A stretch of DNA of 43,766 bases from Prochlorococcus sp. AG-670-O13 (GTDB taxonomy: Bacteria > Cyanobacteriota > Cyanobacteriia > PCC-6307 > Cyanobiaceae). The position numbers were made by a program, and so were the translations under genes. Shown piece by piece: positions 32,889 to 43,766 of the stretch. A model generated the notes under the pieces. That model was not told the origin of the DNA, did not search any database, and worked only from the letters and a program-made list of their open reading frames with translations. Location: contig QCTB01000006.1 in assembly GCA_003209055.1 (NCBI GenBank), positions 1 to 43,766 on the forward strand. The letters are read 5' to 3'. The first letter of the stretch is position 1; every line of letters begins with the position of its first letter.

Positions 32889-34418
32889 TTAGATCTGAAT
32901 CTCTTTGGGAATCTTATCATTATAAAGATCAATAACTTTATCTACTACCTCATTAATTGAATATCCATCGGTAATAATTTCAATTGCGTCATTTGCTTTT
33001 ATTAGAGGTGAAATTTCTCTATTAGAATCTTCAAAATCTCTTTTTTTTATAAGCTCTTTTAACTTATTTAGGTCTATATTTTGTGCGTCTTTACTTTGTT
33101 TATCAGACTTTCTTCTTTTTGCTCTTTCATCGATGCTTGCAGATAAAAATATTTTGAGTTCTGCATCAGGAAAAACAGTAGTTCCTATATCTCTACCCTC
33201 AGCTACAATTCCTCCTGATTCTCCAATTTTTCTTTGTTCTTCTACTAAGAATTTTCTTACTTCTTTGATTGAGGAAATTTTAGAAACTATGGAACTTATC
33301 TCTTGCGATCGAATTTCTTCAGTAACACAATAGTTATTAATAAAAACATCCTGATCTGAATTTTCATTAGACTTGAAGACAATAGATATATTTTTAAGGA
33401 TATTATTCAATTCTTTTTCTTTTTTATAATCAATATTTTCTTTTAATAAAAGCCAACTCAATGCCCTATACATTGCTCCAGTATCTAAATATAAAAGTTT
33501 AAGTTTCTTCGCTATCAACTTTGTAACAGTACTTTTGCCTGACCCGGCAGGCCCATCAATTGCAATAATTGGGCTTCTTTTCATTAGAAAAACGTGATCT
33601 ATTAATCTTGTCTCTCCACATCTTATCGCACCAGCCAGAATTGAAATATTATCCTCAACTTCTAATTTTTGAAGGGTATAAGGATGTAAATGTTCTAAAT
33701 ATTCAATTGAAATTTTTTCTGCTGTAAGCTTTTTAATTATTTCTTTTAAGTTAATCTTTTTTTCTTGTTTGAAATTATTTTTCGCTATTAATAACTCATT
33801 TGAAAAAAATCTAATTAATTTTCTTTCGTCTTTTGATAGACGTACATTACGAGAACTTAAAGGAATTCCATCAAAATCTCTCTGGGTGGGTATGGATTTA
33901 ATTTTTATATTTAATTCTTTTGTTAAAATAAGATTTTTTAATATTAAAAGTTGTTGCCAATCTTTTTCTCCTAAATAAAGATTTTTAGGCTTGATGAGAT
34001 TAAGTAATCTATAAACTACAGTACAAACGCCATCAAAATGTCCTATTCGATTTAATCCGCATAATGCCGAAGATAATTCTACAGAAGCTTTCAGGAACGA
34101 AATATTTTTTATATTCGCTGGATATATATCTTCAGTACAAGGGATGAAAATGGCATCTGCGCCATTTGAAAAGGATACTTTGATATCATTATCAATTGTT
34201 TTAGGATAATTCTCTAAATCTGACTTGTTATCAAATTGAAGTGGATTAATAAAAATACTTACTAAAACTAAATTGGAATCTTCACTTTTTGCTGTCGAAA
34301 TTATTTTTTGATGACCTTTATGAAGATTACCCATTGTTGGGATAAAGTTAATATCGCTTTTGAGGTTTTGTCGCCATTGGTAAAGTTCTTCTGTTTTTCT
34401 AATTATTATTTTTTTCAC
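32889..34418 (-). CDS. panC/cmk: Bifunctional pantothenate synthetase / cytidylate kinase
   Basis: This 509-residue fusion is typical of cyanobacteria. The first half (to about 275) is pantothenate synthetase, which joins pantoate and beta-alanine with ATP; it has FIPTMGNLHKGH with the ATP-binding histidines, FINPLQF, and YLGEKDWQQL. The second half is cytidylate kinase, which phosphorylates CMP and dCMP, beginning with IAIDGPAGSGKSTVTKLIAKKL and including YLDTGAMYRALSW and IVAEGRDIGTTVFPDAELK. The link between the two activities is unclear. No reading-frame break separates the halves. It is divergent from purM, with 97 bases between starts. Confidence 0.97.
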   Translation of the reverse strand: MKKIIIRKTEELYQWRQNLKSDINFIPTMGNLHKGHQKIISTAKSEDSNLVLVSIFINPLQFDNKSDLENYPKTIDNDIKVSFSNGADAIFIPCTEDIYPANIKNISFLKASVELSSALCGLNRIGHFDGVCTVVYRLLNLIKPKNLYLGEKDWQQLLILKNLILTKELNIKIKSIPTQRDFDGIPLSSRNVRLSKDERKLIRFFSNELLIAKNNFKQEKKINLKEIIKKLTAEKISIEYLEHLHPYTLQKLEVEDNISILAGAIRCGETRLIDHVFLMKRSPIIAIDGPAGSGKSTVTKLIAKKLKLLYLDTGAMYRALSWLLLKENIDYKKEKELNNILKNISIVFKSNENSDQDVFINNYCVTEEIRSQEISSIVSKISSIKEVRKFLVEEQRKIGESGGIVAEGRDIGTTVFPDAELKIFLSASIDERAKRRKSDKQSKDAQNIDLNKLKELIKKRDFEDSNREISPLIKANDAIEIITDGYSINEVVDKVIDLYNDKIPKEIQI

Positions 34419-37441: not shown

Positions 37442-37466
37442 AGGCAGCACCCAAATCCGAAGCGGG
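37442..37466 (-). repeat. Degenerate tRNA 3'-end fragment (outer att-like site)
   Basis: The minus strand reads CCCGCTTCGGATTTGGGTGC then TGCCT, with a T-loop TTCGGAT flanked by CCC/GGG and followed by a seven-base acceptor strand. It shares 20 of 25 bases with the fragment at 38188-38213. No D arm or anticodon arm is attached. This is what remains of the 3' half of a tRNA when an element integrates there. Confidence 0.6.
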
Positions 37467-37467
37467 T

Positions 37468-37578
37468 TTAAACTTCGCTAAGTTTGCTACAACTATTTTT
37501 CTTGTAAGTATTACCTGATTCATCTACGCCAATAACCCATTAGAATGAAGTAATGTAATTTAAAGGTATACTTTTCAT
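37468..37578 (-). pseudogene. Broken small reading frame, possible remnant
   Basis: Reading the minus strand from ATG at 37578 gives MKSIPLNYITSF, then TAA, then in the same frame WVIGVDESGNTYKK... ending SKLSEV and TAA. One base change in the internal stop would restore a continuous 36-residue protein whose second half looks like real coding sequence. It ends 1 base before the tRNA-like fragment. Support is weak because it is so short. Confidence 0.3.
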
Positions 37579-38187: not shown

Positions 38188-38213
38188 AGGCGGCACCCAG
38201 ATTCGAATGGGGG
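38188..38213 (-). repeat. tRNA 3'-end fragment beside integrase (att-like site)
   Basis: The minus strand reads CCCCCATTCGAATCTGGG followed by TGCCGCC and T. This is a T-loop TTCGAAT, the 3' side of a T stem (CTGGG), a seven-base acceptor strand TGCCGCC, and a discriminator T, so the parent tRNA would begin GGCGGCA. The T stem has lost its two inner pairs and the rest of the tRNA is absent. tRNA-Cys is my first guess for the parent, from memory. It lies 117 bp before the integrase gene. Confidence 0.75.
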
Positions 38214-38329: not shown

Positions 38330-39775
38330 ATGGGAGTCAGTCCAATTCGAGGAACCAAGTTACCTGATGATTGGACAACAATTCGCATCCAAGATTATTG
38401 GAATGTTAGAGGTCAAATTAGTGGAGATCTAAGACTAAGAAGAAGAAAAGATAGTCCTAATATTCAAGGAGAATTTTTACCACTACCAGAAGAAGATCCT
38501 CGACCTAATCAAGGCAGGGGTAACAATGGTAAACGTCTTACTATTAGAAATTCTTTACGGACAAGTGATCCATTTACTGCTGCTGAAAAAGCAGTTGAAT
38601 GGAATAAGCAAGTACTGAATAAAAATAAAATATTAGTTGAAGAAGGTGCAGATGATTCTGAGTTTAGTGTTGAAGCATATTTCCAGAAATGGTTTGCAGA
38701 GGAATCTAGAACTCGTGAGAAAGATACAACACAAAATTTTTCAAGATGGAGGAATGATAATCAATCATTTTGGGACTTGAATTTTGTTCAACCTACTTTT
38801 GATAGTGATGGAAATATATTGTATGACCCTAGTTGGATAAAGAAGCATATTAGTAAAGCAACTAAGAGGCATCTGAAAAATGTTGAGCAAAAAATTGAGA
38901 TAAGGGTAGTTGAAAAAACAAAAGGTAAAACAACAGGAACAGGAACAAAAGAACAGGCAAAAACACTTTGGAACAAACTTGTAGAAATTGCAGAATTAGA
39001 GATTGATGGACATGCCTTTCCTACTTTTCCTACATTTGATATTGATATAACACCAGAGTGTTCTCACCTTAGAGTCGAACAATTCAAAGCAGTATTGGAT
39101 TATATAATTTCTGCTTCTAATGGTGCATGTACGAAATCACTTACTGAAGATGAATACTATAATCTTCCACACAAATTCCAGAATGTATTGAGTACTAGGA
39201 ATTGGGTAGATCTATATGATGCTGTGATGGTTCAATGGTTCTTCTTTACAAGATCTCAAGACATGAAGAGGATCAAACCTGAAATGTTTTCAGTTGTAGA
39301 AGGTGATGAGGATAAAGTTATTTTTAGGATCAAAGGTAAAACAGGTCTGCTAAAAGAAAGTGAAAATTATAGGAATGGAGCAACATCAGTTGTCAGTAAA
39401 ATCCTGAAAAGAAAGGGAAATTTAGAATACTTAGTCTTTCCTGATGTAGATAGATCCACTCAGAAATCTGGTGTAGATAAGAAACTCAATCAGTTGCTAA
39501 AACATGCAATCAATGAAGTATGTCCCGAATATCGTGGCGATATGGATTGGACAATGATGAGGCATACGACATTTAGACTCACATTTGAGGAGGATGAGGA
39601 TCTTCAATCAGGAAAGAGACTTACGGAGTTTGCTAGAAATGCTCATACTTCTGTCGCTATGCTTGAAAAACATTATTTGAAACCACTTAGGGATGCTAAA
39701 GCAGCAAGTCAATCAAGAAAGAAAATTGGTCTAGGTGCATGGGGGAAGATGTACTTGAAAAAGAGAGTAAAATAG
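38330..39775 (+). CDS. Tyrosine recombinase (integrase)
   Basis: This 481-residue protein is a site-specific recombinase of the phage-integrase class. The C-terminal catalytic domain (from about 245) holds Arg308 in FFFTRSQDMKRI, Lys337 in RIKGKTGLL, Arg411 in TMMRHTTFRL, His439 in ARNAHTS and the nucleophile Tyr449 in EKHYLK. The usual box II histidine before Arg411 is Thr408, a known type of variation. The N-terminal 100 residues are basic and probably bind arm sites; a core-binding domain lies around 112-230. It lies next to a tRNA 3' fragment with direct repeats and reads away from it. This placement strongly supports an integrative element that targets a tRNA gene. Confidence 0.93.
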   Translation: MGVSPIRGTKLPDDWTTIRIQDYWNVRGQISGDLRLRRRKDSPNIQGEFLPLPEEDPRPNQGRGNNGKRLTIRNSLRTSDPFTAAEKAVEWNKQVLNKNKILVEEGADDSEFSVEAYFQKWFAEESRTREKDTTQNFSRWRNDNQSFWDLNFVQPTFDSDGNILYDPSWIKKHISKATKRHLKNVEQKIEIRVVEKTKGKTTGTGTKEQAKTLWNKLVEIAELEIDGHAFPTFPTFDIDITPECSHLRVEQFKAVLDYIISASNGACTKSLTEDEYYNLPHKFQNVLSTRNWVDLYDAVMVQWFFFTRSQDMKRIKPEMFSVVEGDEDKVIFRIKGKTGLLKESENYRNGATSVVSKILKRKGNLEYLVFPDVDRSTQKSGVDKKLNQLLKHAINEVCPEYRGDMDWTMMRHTTFRLTFEEDEDLQSGKRLTEFARNAHTSVAMLEKHYLKPLRDAKAASQSRKKIGLGAWGKMYLKKRVK

Positions 39776-39852: not shown

Positions 39853-39886
39853 TTGACAAGACAGTAAATATAGACTATAATATTTA
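39853..39886 (+). promoter_or_regulatory. Perfect-consensus sigma70 promoter with overlapping operator-like repeat
   Basis: TTGACA (39853-39858) and TATAAT (39876-39881) are both exact consensus with a 17-base spacer, the optimum. An inverted repeat TAAATAT-N8-ATATTTA (39865-39886) overlaps the -10 box, so a repressor bound there would block transcription. The predicted start near 39,888 leaves a leader of about 190 bases before the first gene at 40082. Confidence 0.85.
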
Positions 39887-40279: not shown

Positions 40280-40515
40280 TGGCGATATCTAATCACAAGA
40301 TTACAAATGGTTCTGGTGGAGATTCAACGTCATCAGGTGCAATGTCTAACCCCATGTACAGGAATGTTTGTGAAGGGTATTACATTCCAAACGACGAGAG
40401 AAAACACAGAAGGGCAGAGGAAAGAATGAGATGTAAGAGAAGAAGAGTGATGAAGAAATATGGAGACTCTAAACCAAGGGGGTTCATGTCAAAAACAAAG
40501 GAGGTAAGAAAATGA
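40279..40515 (+). CDS. Small basic protein, second gene of cargo operon
   Basis: This 78-residue protein has a Ser/Gly-rich start and a strongly basic second half (RKHRRAEERMRCKRRRVMKK), suggesting nucleic-acid binding or a disordered tail. A GAGGAGG ribosome site lies at the end of the previous gene. Its TGA overlaps the next gene's ATG by 4 bases (ATGA). The acidic first gene and basic second gene could form a complex, but this is speculation. No domain is recognised. Confidence 0.65.
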   Translation: MAISNHKITNGSGGDSTSSGAMSNPMYRNVCEGYYIPNDERKHRRAEERMRCKRRRVMKKYGDSKPRGFMSKTKEVRK

Positions 40516-40757
40516 ATGATCAATTTGAACAACCAGATTGGGATTATAAAGAATCCATCAAGTTTCAAAAGTTGCCTGACCGTCATGGTCAGCATTGGCA
40601 CCGTCTTGAGGTTAGATCTCTTGGTTTGAAGGGTTGGACGAGTCTTGGAATGTTCAATCAAACTATGATTGTTGATCTTTTGATGAATTGCCATGATGCT
40701 CTTGACGAGAACGAGGCAGTAGAGTCTTTAGAAAAGTTGTATCATCAAAAAACCTAG
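40512..40757 (+). CDS. Small hypothetical protein, third gene of cargo operon
   Basis: The 81-residue protein is preceded by AAAGGAGGT, an exact match to the anti-Shine-Dalgarno complement, 6 bases from the ATG. It appears to have a mixed alpha-beta fold (HWHRLEVRSLGLKGWTSLGMF, then a helix NQTMIVDLLMNCHDAL). There is no membrane segment. The reverse strand has a 104-residue hydrophobic frame here, which I reject as a shadow. No family is recognised. Confidence 0.7.
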   Translation: MNDQFEQPDWDYKESIKFQKLPDRHGQHWHRLEVRSLGLKGWTSLGMFNQTMIVDLLMNCHDALDENEAVESLEKLYHQKT

Positions 40758-41053
40758 TGTTTGCAATGGAAGCGCTTTGGAGTGGCGAATTTAGCGTGTT
40801 CCGCTTGTTTTATAAAAAGGTCTAAAAAAACATAGGTTTGCTGTCTAAGACGTTCAGTTATAGAGAGTGAAAATCTGGAAATTATAAATAGAGATATCTC
40901 ATAGTGATTGATTGGGAAGATACTAGTTTTGCATTTGGAAGATGCTTTGGGTACTGATCTTCAACACCATTCTCATCACGTTGAATAACCTTCAACCTAT
41001 TCCACAGGTGGGTGGTAGGAAGGAGGACTGACTAAAAAAACAAACTATGATCC
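40758..41053. other. Intergenic stretch within the element
   Basis: These 296 bases separate the first three small genes from the 231-residue protein. The stretch includes GGAAGGAGGACTGACTAA near 41,018-41,035, a strong ribosome-site sequence that is not at a usable distance from any ATG I accept. No clear promoter, hairpin terminator or gene was found. A regulatory or origin function is possible but not supported by a visible signal. Confidence 0.35.
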
Positions 41054-41749
41054 ATGTTTACTCAATCCAAGAAAGATCTCGCCGAGATCAGGAACTTCCT
41101 CATAACGGAGACTGACTTCTGTTCATACAAACCTAATTGGTTCATCAGCATAAGTTATCTTCAGGACTACTCAAGAGATCAACTCTTGAAATACCATAAA
41201 CGTCTAAATGATGTAATCCAAGACACATTCGACCCTTATGAAATGAATGTTATCTGTAAAGGATACTTTATAGAAAAGGGTAGTAAGAAACTAATAGAGC
41301 AAAGGGATCTAAAGGTTCTGAATACTATTAGTGATGTATATGAATATGACAAGGAGATGACACTAAAGGATGGTTCTTATGGTACCCATTTAGTTCTGAC
41401 TCTATATCCTTCAATCTTAGATAAACCTAATAAAAGGGTAAGAAAGTTATGGCAAACAATGTATTGGGACTTTGGAGGAAGACCACCTATGCACCTATTA
41501 GAAGAAGAGAATCGTGAGTTACTACTTGCTGAAACTCTTGAGTTTGTCATTAGGGACAGATGTCCTTCATTCATTGCGAATGGAGAGGATGCTATCCAAG
41601 TTGATCGTATAGATGACCGTAGGGTTTTCAAGGATACTGGTGAAAAAGGATGGAAGGGTGCTTTGCACTACTGCACTAAGCAGATCTTTTGCAAAGATCA
41701 GTTCCTAGAAGTCTTTGATGAAAAGAATTCAAATATATGTGTTGCCTAA
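41054..41749 (+). CDS. Unassigned 231-residue protein, weakly like HUH replication initiators
   Basis: The largest cargo protein of the element. The order of features recalls rolling-circle Rep proteins. A hydrophobic strand NWFISISYL (28-36) is in the place of motif I. A strand with THLVLTLYP (111-119) lies where HUH would be, but only His112 is present and the second His is missing. ALHYCTKQIF (203-212) has a Y-x-x-K (Tyr206, Lys209) preceded by acidic DRIDDRRVFKD. The match is incomplete and no helicase or primase domain is present. It could equally be a host-takeover or unknown protein. The ribosome site is weak at this ATG. Confidence in the gene is high and in the function low. Confidence 0.75.
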   Translation: MFTQSKKDLAEIRNFLITETDFCSYKPNWFISISYLQDYSRDQLLKYHKRLNDVIQDTFDPYEMNVICKGYFIEKGSKKLIEQRDLKVLNTISDVYEYDKEMTLKDGSYGTHLVLTLYPSILDKPNKRVRKLWQTMYWDFGGRPPMHLLEEENRELLLAETLEFVIRDRCPSFIANGEDAIQVDRIDDRRVFKDTGEKGWKGALHYCTKQIFCKDQFLEVFDEKNSNICVA

Positions 41750-41793: not shown

Positions 41794-41982
41794 ATGCAAA
41801 GAACTAAACAGCAAAAGTTATGTCTGAACGTATCCAGACGAAATAAAAAAATGATTGAAAAATTAGAAGTTTTGATGTTGGAAAAAAATTTATCAATGAC
41901 TGATACTGTCTTTCAAATAATCAAGAAAGAGTATGAGGCATTTGAATCTAAAAAACGTAATAGACAATTATTAGGAGTCTGA
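41794..41982 (+). CDS. Ribbon-helix-helix-like DNA-binding protein 1
   Basis: I place the start at ATG 41794 (62 residues); the frame also opens at 41737, overlapping the previous gene, but the extra 19 residues do not look like part of the fold. A short strand KLCLNVSRRN is followed by two helices (MIEKLEVLMLEKN and MTDTVFQIIKKEYEAFE), the ribbon-helix-helix plan of Arc/CopG regulators, which dimerise to bind operators. It may recognise the inverted repeat at 39865-39886. Its TGA overlaps the next ATG (TGATG). Confidence 0.6.
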   Translation: MQRTKQQKLCLNVSRRNKKMIEKLEVLMLEKNLSMTDTVFQIIKKEYEAFESKKRNRQLLGV

Positions 41983-42137
41983 TGTCTCAATCTAGTGTGT
42001 ATATCTCATCTACTGCAAAACAACAACTTAGAGAGATAGCAAGAAAACATTTCAAGAAAGAGTCTGAGATTTTAGAGCAGTTTATCTCTGATACTCATGA
42101 CAAGATGAAAAACTCATTCGGGAGGAAGATTCTATGA
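41982..42137 (+). CDS. Ribbon-helix-helix-like DNA-binding protein 2
   Basis: A 51-residue frame not recovered at usual length cut-offs. It starts in the overlap TGATG behind a GGAG ribosome site and ends in an ATGA overlap with the following gene. It again shows a strand (SSVYISSTA) and two helices (KQQLREIARKHF and ESEILEQFISDTHDKM), the same plan as the gene before, with no close sequence likeness. Two adjacent small DNA-binding proteins suggest regulation of the element or, less likely, antitoxin function without a visible toxin. Confidence 0.6.
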   Translation: MSQSSVYISSTAKQQLREIARKHFKKESEILEQFISDTHDKMKNSFGRKIL

Positions 42138-42412
42138 AAAAGAAAAAAATCAATGTCAAAAGACCTCGTAGTAAAAAGGGTGATGATAAACCTTTGAACG
42201 TATCAACCATGCAGGGTGATGCTGCTCCTGATACATCTCCTAACGAGATACATGTAGGTGGAAATCATCTTTATTATGAAGAAGAAAAAAAGAAGAAAAA
42301 TAAGAAAAAAAGAGAAATTTTGAAGGGGATGGATCTCCTCAAGAAACGTATAACATATGCTGACTTCCGACAAAAATCTAATGAAGTGAAGTATGGAAGA
42401 AATAGTATCTAA
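42134..42412 (+). CDS. Lys-rich hypothetical protein
   Basis: The 92-residue protein has Lys/Arg-rich runs at the N-terminus and middle, separated by a Pro/Asn/Asp-rich linker (MQGDAAPDTSPNEIHVGGN). It appears mostly disordered with nucleic-acid-binding potential. A GGGAGG ribosome site precedes the ATG. It overlaps the previous gene by 4 bases and the next by 20, so it is part of the same operon. No family is recognised. Confidence 0.6.
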   Translation: MKKKKINVKRPRSKKGDDKPLNVSTMQGDAAPDTSPNEIHVGGNHLYYEEEKKKKNKKKREILKGMDLLKKRITYADFRQKSNEVKYGRNSI

Positions 42413-42758
42413 TCGAGAATATACATGCTCATTCATCAAGCAAGATGACTTGGCATACGTTGCAAAGATCCGTAGATGGGAAACTCAAAAGTTTGAACCT
42501 GCACATGGATACGCTAGAAATCAGTTCATAGAGATGCTGAAGAGGAACTTCGATCTAAAAGTTGAACGAGATCAAGTGAAGGTGAAGATGGTGGTTCTGG
42601 TGGAGAAACCTCAAGGCAAACTCAATGCTACTCAAAGAAAGAGATGGCACAATATGCACTTTGAATGGATGAGTGTAGTGAAGAAGAAGGTAGTGGTTGA
42701 GGACTGTTGTCCTAGACATAAAACAGGTTGGATAACATACGATCCAGACGAAGAGTAA
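42393..42758 (+). CDS. 121-residue hypothetical protein, last gene of cargo operon
   Basis: The protein has an alpha-beta look: YTCSFIKQDDLAYVAKIRRWE, a helix QFIEMLKRNFDLKV, a strand KVKMVVLVEKP, and a Trp-containing region QRKRWHNMHFEWMSVV, followed by a strand pair ending in CCPRHKTGWITYDP. The two adjacent cysteines plus a nearby His could bind metal. It overlaps the previous gene by 20 bases, lacks a strong ribosome site, and ends 4 bases before the terminator hairpin. No named family is recognised. Confidence 0.65.
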   Translation: MEEIVSNREYTCSFIKQDDLAYVAKIRRWETQKFEPAHGYARNQFIEMLKRNFDLKVERDQVKVKMVVLVEKPQGKLNATQRKRWHNMHFEWMSVVKKKVVVEDCCPRHKTGWITYDPDEE

Positions 42759-42762
42759 GCAT

Positions 42763-42802
42763 AAAAAAAAGACTCACTTTTGGGCGGGGTGAGTCTTTTT
42801 TT
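42763..42802. terminator. Strong bidirectional intrinsic terminator
   Basis: AAAAAAAGACTCAC pairs perfectly with GTGAGTCTTTTTTT around an 11-base loop. The GC-containing core with A-run on one side and T-run on the other serves both strands. It lies between the convergent cargo operon (plus) and the recombinase operon (minus). Confidence 0.95.
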
Positions 42803-42811
42803 GTCCATGAT

Positions 42812-43009
42812 CTACTTACTATTATTTATGTCTTCAACTTTTACCGCTTCAAAGGATTCCTTATTCACTATCCTCATCTTGTAAGTGGGATATCTTGTAT
42901 GCCACCACTTATTTACTGCCATAGCAATCTGACTCTTAGGGTTGCCACATATGTGAACCCATAGAGTTTTATCACTTTCCCTTTTGTAGTGTTCCCAACT
43001 TGTACTCAT
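42812..43009 (-). CDS. 65-residue hypothetical protein, recombinase operon
   Basis: Last gene of the minus-strand operon. It has a Trp-rich helix-strand layout (LWVHICGNPKSQIAMAVNKWWHTRYP, then YKMRIVNKESFEAVKVEDI). Its ATG overlaps the TGA of the gene before by 4 bases. It could be a small accessory DNA-binding factor, for example a recombination directionality factor, but this rests on position alone. No signal peptide or membrane segment is visible. Confidence 0.6.
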   Translation of the reverse strand: MSTSWEHYKRESDKTLWVHICGNPKSQIAMAVNKWWHTRYPTYKMRIVNKESFEAVKVEDINNSK

Positions 43010-43149
43010 TGAATCATTGCCCAGATATTTCTCGCAGAGTCACCATACTTTGCTTTCATAATTCTAATTGCATGATGCTCTGATGCAGCATAGATATACG
43101 ATTCAGTTCTATATCCTTCGAGTAATGCAGATACTTTGAACTTTCTCAT
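43006..43149 (-). CDS. 47-residue hypothetical protein, recombinase operon
   Basis: This short frame (MRKFKVSALLEGYRTESYIYAA..., ending ARNIWAMIQ) lies exactly between the recombinase and the 65-residue gene, with 4-base ATGA overlaps at both ends. GAGGTG upstream of its ATG can act as a ribosome site. It has a strand pair followed by a helix (SEHHAIRIMKAKY). The two precise overlaps make it a convincing gene despite its size. Confidence 0.7.
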   Translation of the reverse strand: MRKFKVSALLEGYRTESYIYAASEHHAIRIMKAKYGDSARNIWAMIQ

Positions 43150-43766
43150 GCTGCCACCTCATATCTTTTGATTATTCTTCTAACCATTGATACGGTCATA
43201 CCCATTGAGCGAGCAATAGTACCATAACCAAGATCTTGAGATCTCATCTCCATAACTGTTTTTGCTTGGTCATTGGTATATCCATGTTTCCTTCCCCAAT
43301 GATTTCCTTTTGCACGATATAGTTCAGCACCTTCTTTGCATCTTCTATTGATATCTCGAAGATTCATCTCGGCACCGTAACCAAGAACTGCAATTATGAG
43401 TTTCACTATCTCAGGTGGAAATTGAGTAGTGTTCAATCTTCCATCAAGGGTAACGATATGACATCCTTTTTCTAAAAGTTTGGTTGTTTCTACAACCATC
43501 TCCACCATATTTCTTCCAAGTCTTGATAGATCATCAACATATAATATTTGACCTGATTCAATTTCTTCTAGACATTTAGATAATCCTTCCCTGTCTTTAT
43601 AAGATGATCTACCAGTTATATGATCCGAATAAATTTTGGAAACTCCAAGAGATTCCATCTTTATTTTTTGCCTTGTGAAGTCTTGTGTTGAGTGGGAACA
43701 GCGAAGATAAGCGATTTTGAGATTTCGGCAGGGGGTTTCAGCAGATTGAAACGCTAGTGTTTGTGG
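43146..43766 (-). CDS. Serine recombinase (resolvase/invertase type), runs off right edge
   Basis: The protein has the full resolvase plan when read beyond the first ATG (43658). The frame is open to the window edge and upstream of that ATG encodes LKIAYLRCSHSTQDFTRQ, which supplies the catalytic Ser of the Y-x-R-x-S motif and the nearby Gln. The part after the ATG gives ITGRSSYKDREGLSKCL, ILYVDDLSRLGRN with the two active-site arginines, and a C-terminal helix-turn-helix (GTIARSMGMTVSMVRRIIKRY). No ATG, GTG or TTG exists in frame between 43659 and 43766, so the true start is beyond the edge or unusual. It may invert or resolve DNA within the element. Confidence 0.85.
   Translation of the reverse strand, partial: PQTLAFQSAETPCRNLKIAYLRCSHSTQDFTRQKIKMESLGVSKIYSDHITGRSSYKDREGLSKCLEEIESGQILYVDDLSRLGRNMVEMVVETTKLLEKGCHIVTLDGRLNTTQFPPEIVKLIIAVLGYGAEMNLRDINRRCKEGAELYRAKGNHWGRKHGYTNDQAKTVMEMRSQDLGYGTIARSMGMTVSMVRRIIKRYEVAA
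43735..43752. repeat. Inverted repeat GTTTCA-N6-TGAAAC
   Basis: A perfect 6-base inverted repeat with a 6-base spacer lies just upstream of the segment encoding the conserved start of the serine recombinase domain. It may be an operator or a recombination half-site pair. Short, so moderate weight only. Confidence 0.35.

Follow-up and report, generated by a model that had tools for sequence, protein, structure and literature searches.

Related replication initiators and integrative elements

The HUH Rep proteins (PF01446, PF23343 and PF01719) carry, in this order, strand I, a strand with a Glu residue, a strand with the H-x-H motif and a helix with the Y-x-x-K motif. The protein considered here, called the focal protein, is encoded in a 43,766-nucleotide stretch of contig QCTB01000006.1 of Prochlorococcus sp. 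AG-670-O13 (the window) and shows the same order, the likeness of its Glu strand being to the gokushovirus Rep alignment, by eye. As in the HUH Reps, it is a small protein encoded beside its own non-coding block, and its models, of low confidence, are plait-like. Unlike the HUH Reps, the focal family has no significant sequence match, in a profile comparison that covers Rep_1 and the gokushovirus Rep; its first His is a Gly in four of six members, the middle residue of its H-x-H is Ser or Thr, and about 35 residues lie between the Glu and the H-x-H.

Other RCR initiators, described in passages of PMC13107129, rely on acidic residues and a Tyr. The same passages place a Y-x-x-K motif in Rep_trans and present Rep-Arvir, the RCR initiator of an integrating element, as unrecognizable by sequence, which is a precedent for the present case. 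The focal protein resembles these initiators of integrating elements in its Y-x-x-K (Rep_trans) and in being unrecognized by sequence (Rep-Arvir). However, both are described there with a TBP fold and an acidic metal site, while the focal family has an invariant His and two members with H-x-H.

Among integrative elements, the closest in setting is a picocyanobacterial element with the integrase cluster158946, which according to passages of PMC10187409 occupies tRNA-Cys or tRNA-Phe sites and often has a small serine recombinase nearby, and whose integrase also escaped profile annotation. The window element, compared with it by setting alone, has a tRNA-Cys remnant, a small serine recombinase and a recombinase-like protein that escapes profiles. 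These passages name no replication gene for the cluster158946 element, whereas the window element has a candidate initiator. Tycheposons and cryptic elements, as described in passages of PMC10872708 and PMC10187409, are similar in having a tyrosine recombinase, a tRNA site and a Prochlorococcus host; set apart by these descriptions, the elements considered here differ from tycheposons in their size of 4.4–5.5 kb, with no metabolic cargo recognized in them. PICMIs (in passages of PMC10803314) and VEIMEs (named in passages of PMC10187409), which are small marine phage satellites, share the small size, the integrase and the minimal gene set, a likeness drawn here from genes alone. No description of the focal-protein family was recognized in the literature searched, which did not include the original tycheposon paper.

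The focal gene and its homologs

The focal open reading frame starts with ATG, and its identification as a 231-residue coding sequence in the first-pass annotation, a reading of the letters without database searches, is borne out by selection on the protein. The window gene and its homolog in strain MIT 9314 differ at 75 nucleotides, 45 of them at third codon positions, with dN 0.063, dS 0.384 and dN/dS about 0.16, and thus the gene is translated and selected. Its product is a genuine conserved protein, central to a very small integrative element of Prochlorococcus.

Full-length homologs (E < 1e-95) are present in 6 of 266 genomes of the genus, namely the window genome, MIT 9314 and the genomes G382, G504, G483 and G594; the profile search of these 266 genomes gave matches in nine at E up to 1. 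The five homologs of the window protein all lie within one genus. A protein search with the window protein matched 3 of 400 genomes of the family, and a wider profile search of 400 family genomes, from 59 genera, found weak partial matches alone outside the genus. The most distant of the six proteins is 44% identical to that of the window, and identity between branches is 39–64%. The unrooted tree of the six consists of two branches, one with GTH and one with H-x-H in the His strand, each with 100/100 support, and the G594 branch is long.

Several weaker matches were rejected. Those in G515 and G555 fall in loci read by eye as other genes, and a Mesorhizobium match (L005) is antisense to a long open reading frame, a metal-transport ATPase by eye. 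A match in G389 (E 0.063) and six family-level profile matches (E 0.0097–0.085) were treated as chance, and 25 plasmid places found with the G382 protein were discarded, the best having E 0.1. The window protein has no match in phages or plasmids, while the G594 protein has two weak phage matches (E 3). Scans of viral contigs by short peptide patterns, which distant relatives may escape, found no relatives of the focal proteins, whether searched with the proteins or with their alignments, nor, in a scan of the same kind, of the 121-aa neighbor.

Gene content of the elements

The focal gene is the constant core of integrative elements of 4.4–5.5 kb. Together with the gene of about 62 residues that follows, it is present in all six elements, and that small gene varies to a similar degree. 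The 92–120-aa, 121-aa and convergent 47-aa genes are shared by five elements, the 51-aa gene by four, with an unrelated 52-aa open reading frame at that place in G382, and the serine recombinase with its adjoining 65-aa gene is found in the window, G382, G504 and G483. The G594 locus ends at a contig end after a 63-aa gene. No phage structural protein was recognized among the module proteins scanned.

Features of the window element and its surroundings (positions in the window)
Feature	Position	Strand	Remarks
Second tRNA-Cys 3' remnant	37442..37472	+	24/31 nt
tRNA-Cys(GCA) 3'-end remnant	38188..38207	+	20/20 nt (25/31); putative attachment-site half, left end of the element
481-aa protein, putative divergent tyrosine recombinase	38330..39775	+	C-terminal Arg, RHT and HY residues, by eye
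Promoter-like site, TTGACA-17-TATAAT	39853..39881	+	12/12 consensus positions (sigma-70-type)
Conserved non-coding block before the focal gene	40745..40905		May serve as origin, regulatory region or both
Focal gene, candidate Y-type nickase / replication initiator	41054..41749	+	231 aa; invariant E74, H112, Y206, K209
Small protein, about 62 aa from the conserved Met	41794..41982	+	CopG-like by eye only; Pfam matches sub-threshold and to other families
51-aa protein	41982..42137	+	Identical in G504 and G483; 67% in MIT 9314
92-aa module protein	42134..42412	+	99–120-aa homologs in four other elements
121-aa protein	42393..42758	+	86–99% identity in four other elements
Inverted repeat containing runs of A and T, where two genes converge	42763..42802		Terminator-like by eye; not in the terminator scan
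65-aa protein	42812..43009	-	79–89% identity, same place in G382, G504 and G483
47-aa protein	43009..43149	-	Conserved in four other elements (58–94%)
Serine recombinase	43146..43766	-	Resolvase, E 6.7e-23; frame still open at the contig end

The 121-aa protein of the window is 98–99% identical to those of G382, G504 and G483, and the focal proteins show only 39–64% identity between branches. Such divergence beside a nearly identical neighbor is as expected of a module that sets replicon specificity. In another comparison, the 51-aa and 121-aa proteins are 99–100% identical between the window (41982–42758) and locus L020 (9140–9937), while the focal proteins are about 61% identical; near-identical genes beside diverged focal genes suggest that modules were exchanged recently.

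A recombinase is visible in five of the six elements, and the complete elements carry recognized tyrosine integrases. In G382, G504 and G483 an AlpA/excisionase-like protein of 148–149 residues accompanies a 426-aa tyrosine integrase, recognized by NCBIfam (E 3e-15) and just short of the Pfam cut-off (26.6 of 27.1 bits). The 502-aa integrase of MIT 9314 matches Pfam with E 8.7e-5, below the cut-off at 22.8 of 27.1 bits. The 481-aa protein of the window matches no integrase in Pfam, PHROGs, NCBIfam, PDB or phages, its best Pfam match being ATP-grasp_4 (E 0.0017, 18.4 of 27 bits); the residues near its C-terminus, read by eye, and its place beside the tRNA remnant make it a candidate recombinase. 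No similarity is detectable between any two of the three recombinases (hhalign with single sequences, 0.3–0.5%). The same core thus stands beside three recombinases, two of them recognized and that of the window assigned by eye, at three kinds of site. The serine recombinase of the window is 42–43% identical to those of G382, G504 and G483.

Insertion sites

The elements of G382, G504 and G483 occupy tRNA-Ser(GCT). Each has a direct repeat of 18 nt, the copies of which lie 5457 or 5384 bp apart and agree at 18 of 18 positions in G382 and at 16 of 18 in G504 and G483. The comparison took in 17 of 20 loci, those from the same genus; in 11 of them the two G504 flanks meet at the repeat, representing the empty site, and in the other six the left G504 flank does not stand beside the tRNA. 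The left flank of G382 is different, and one locus (G423, L157) has this flank beside the tRNA. The sequence TCCCAACAACA occurs in five copies near the two ends of these three elements, two at one and three at the other, as arm-type sites of an integrase would lie.

The MIT 9314 element (L004 1298–5689) is placed at the 3' end of a gene for a flavodiiron-like protein with metallo-lactamase, flavodoxin and flavin-reductase domains, and not at a tRNA. Its flanks adjoin with an overlap of 20–23 nt in 14 of 20 loci; of the remaining loci, four contain other DNA and two are without the right flank. The element stands between two flavodiiron-like genes. An integrase, direct att repeats and an empty site, which define a site-specific element, are therefore all found for G382, G504 and G483 and for MIT 9314.

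In the window, the similarity to the host loci of relatives stops at 36.5–36.8 kb in 17 of 19 loci, the other two being short, and tRNA-Cys lies just downstream of this point in five of six relatives' loci scanned. The first 36 kb of the window contain no better match to tRNA-Cys than 18/31. A search of the window's own genome, which is 68% complete, with tRNA-Cys and its flank returned only the window remnant, so the right end of the element is missing and should lie beyond the contig end.

Sequence motifs of the focal protein

The succession of strand I, a His strand and Y-x-x-K noted in the first-pass annotation is present in full in the window protein: the hydrophobic strand WFISISYL (residues 29–36), the His strand YGTHLVLTL (residues 109–117) with H112, and Y206-C-T-K209. 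In the alignment, all six homologs share E74 (within YFIEKG), H112, Y206 and K209 without exception, and the acidic residues D21, D57, E74, D99, D106 and E150 are invariant as well.

The annotation had also reported that the second His of the motif is missing. One His of H-x-H is indeed absent from the window protein, but it is the other one. Two homologs, G382 (RHSHLMLSL) and G594 (RHTHALLSL), carry a His at the position of Gly110, and so the residue lacking in the window is the first His, which is present in the sister branch. The metal motif H-U-H (or H-U-Q) as such is not found: the sequence is HSH or HTH in these two, with Ser or Thr at the middle position where a bulky hydrophobic residue is usual, and GTH in the other four (window, MIT 9314, G504 and G483). 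The alignment of the GTH branch offers no clear candidate residue to replace the lost His. The Y-x-x-K motif is found in all six, and in the low-confidence model Y206 and K209 lie in helix 199–209, although the catalytic role remains putative.

The bare pattern H.H..Y..K, with 50–150 residues between its parts, is weak evidence alone, as shuffling (5000 times each) produces it in 377 cases for the G382 protein and in 239 for the G594 protein, and it also occurs in two non-focal proteins among 195 open reading frames of at least 150 residues from the compared loci. A tighter version, which asks for the hydrophobic strand, E-x-G, [HGQN]xH and YxxK and was written post hoc from the alignment, appears 2–24 times when each of five focal proteins is shuffled 5000 times, and in none of the non-focal frames among the 195, which include homologous host genes from many loci.

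Comparison with protein families

The window protein has no entry in Pfam, including its regulator families, or in NCBIfam; its two PHROGs matches are at chance level (E 0.05 and 0.23), and sequence searches of PDB gave no match below E 0.18. The sole Pfam match listed for the G382 protein is REP_ORF2-G2P (PF23343), over the HxH stretch, which is sub-threshold (E 0.076, 13.7 of 27.8 bits) and confined to this one of the six homologs. DUF6762, a family of unknown function, matches two of the six (best E 0.035), and Rep_trans matches none. PADLOC defense models gave no match for five proteins.

In profile–profile comparison the six-row family was aligned by hhalign to 71 gokushovirus Reps, retrieved with a PF23343 member as the query, and to seven Rep_1 sequences, from six loci (one of seven, the short L040, being dropped) and pUB110. 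The probabilities, 0.14% for Rep_1 and 0.15% for the gokushovirus Rep, do not exceed those for nine decoy families (0.1–1.0%) or for the reversed alignment (0.2% and 0.3%). The Rep_1 alignment places GTH on the HxH of Rep_1, without significance. No PF01719 (Rep_OBD) sequences were obtained from 146 genomes. With hhalign at decoy level and a sub-threshold Pfam match in one of six, membership in the HUH class is not established. The profile search proposed in the first-pass annotation thus gave no significant match to an HUH family in Pfam, PHROGs, NCBIfam or hhalign, and its other suggestion, that of a novel family, holds at the level of sequence within the protein-family, PDB, phage and plasmid searches made.

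Predicted fold

AlphaFold2 models were built from two close sequences alone, and their mean pLDDT is 44.4 (full length) and 48.4 (residues 25–215). The first model, at this low confidence, contains a strand (31–39), a helix (41–58), the His strand (109–117) and two helices (127–140 and 151–169), followed in the C-terminal part by strands 181–186 and 189–194 and helix 199–209 with Y206. Both models show a ferredoxin/RRM-like plait over residues of about 25–145. The predicted order, β1-α1-β(HxH)-α-β-α(Y-x-x-K), with pLDDT 44 and 48, follows that of the HUH Rep domain described in passages of PMC10833120 except for the second strand, which is expected near E74 (about 66–76) and absent from both models, the second having a helix at 83–96.

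Structure look-ups (VIA) returned common plaits, including ribosomal S6, with Z up to 6.3 and 6.5, an uninformative range. No HUH enzyme was seen among the best 50 matches listed for the first model; the HUH enzyme IS608 TnpA appears at rank 45 of the best 50 for the second (Z 4.3, rmsd 3.9, 75 aligned residues), tied with many unrelated plaits, and carries no weight as evidence of membership. Foldseek, with a viral structure library included, gave nothing at E 0.001 or better. The low-confidence models are compatible with an HUH fold. The structure prediction that the first-pass annotation had called for therefore yields a plait-like fold with an HUH-like order, but at a pLDDT below usable confidence; of the outcomes that would have counted against its reading, neither a clear match to another family nor a confident unrelated fold turned up.

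The upstream block and promoter-like sites

The conserved block upstream of the focal gene has 80 invariant columns of 162 in an alignment of four elements, with G483, a near copy of G504, and the divergent G594 left out. Its first bases overlap the end of the open reading frame 40512–40757. The block contains no conserved hairpin: the one seen in G504 and G382 has lost an arm in MIT 9314, and its window counterpart is weak. None of the folds is much better than those of shuffled sequences (z -0.4 to -1.9), and an origin with a hairpin is therefore not proposed. Two Rfam matches are both far below the gathering score. The sequence CTAGTGTTTG of the block recurs at the contig end (43754–43763) in the same orientation.

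A promoter-like site with 12/12 consensus positions, like that of the window, follows the integrase of MIT 9314 (L004 3092–3120), and none was found in the other four loci. The site thus stands after the recombinase in two elements, the recombinases of which have no detectable similarity. The promoter scan as a whole gave 12 sites against 19.5 expected in shuffles.

Proposed function and alternatives

The focal gene is kept while the recombinase changes, it diverges beside nearly identical neighbors, and it is accompanied by a conserved upstream block and, in the window and MIT 9314, by a promoter-like site; in this it behaves like a replicon initiator. This behavior and the motifs together make rolling-circle initiation after excision the best explanation. 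That the focal protein is a Y-type HUH-like nickase and the replication initiator of a 4.4–5.5 kb integrative element is accordingly favored here, with a confidence that does not rise above an even balance. The Rep identity raised in the first-pass annotation gains from H-x-H in two relatives, the HUH-like order and the empty sites, but it lacks a significant HUH profile match.

In the proposed mechanism, the focal protein, with an RRM/HUH-like fold, would bind the excised circle in or near the upstream non-coding block, and Tyr206 would cut one strand. The metal would be held by E74, H112 and, in the branch of G382 and G594, the additional His. The protein would stay on the 5' end, leaving a 3'-OH from which host enzymes could carry out rolling-circle replication. 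The G-T-H branch would represent a variant metal site kept active by selection and not a decayed gene; purifying selection is seen within this branch, between the window and MIT 9314.

The absence of a significant match to any nickase family, and a motif common enough to appear in hundreds of shuffles of the G382 protein, would also be expected if the protein cuts no DNA and is a regulator, a DNA-binding accessory or a helper-phage factor with a coincidental likeness. This is unlikely, though it deserves some weight: E74, H112, Y206 and K209 are conserved together, in the right order and in the right predicted secondary structure, the gene is the largest conserved one of the module apart from the recombinases, and no regulator or PADLOC defense model matches. 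The motif evidence serves equally well for a relaxase or another Y-type enzyme of the same fold that acts in transfer (mobilization or the start of packaging) instead of replication, for example by supplying single strands of DNA that spread through conjugation or inside phage particles. HUH relaxases are frequent in small integrative elements, and the lack of recognized phage structural proteins fits as well; however, no mobilization partner and no relaxase family match is found among the scanned proteins, and 231 residues leave little room for extra domains, which makes a transfer function improbable.

A non-HUH rolling-circle initiator of the Rep_trans or Rep-Arvir type, with an acidic metal site and an incidental HxH, would account for the six invariant acidic residues and for a first His that is dispensable in four of six homologs, and initiators with acidic residues and a Tyr are known (passages of PMC13107129). 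Against it stand the invariant H112 and the lack of a Rep_trans match in any homolog; the models look like a single ferredoxin plait but are too weak to count against a TBP fold. This explanation is judged a shade more improbable still than a transfer enzyme.

If the focal protein is the proposed nickase and initiator, it provides Prochlorococcus elements with a concrete means of multiplying once excised, helps to account for the persistence of elements of only 4–5 kb, and puts a replicon on offer for a genus with few genetic tools. It would also test whether an HUH-type site works with one His. A wider proposition, which is tentative and rather doubtful as a whole, is that of a previously unrecognized family of tyrosine nickases, with an active branch that is without the first His (G-x-H with help from Glu/Asp), driving the replication of certain Prochlorococcus integrative elements, among the smallest that are self-contained, as a module traded between unrelated integrases. 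Even without an enzymatic role, one core module with different recombinases and sites, and with clean empty sites, is a clear case of modular evolution of mobile elements.

Other features of the window

The two tRNA-Cys 3' remnants of the window are 746 bp apart. The outer one (37442–37472) was probably left by an additional, older insertion there, and the pair suggests tandem or successive insertions at one tRNA, with a decayed first element between them. Within the host region, positions 32889–34418 hold a single frame that joins pantoate ligase to cytidylate kinase.
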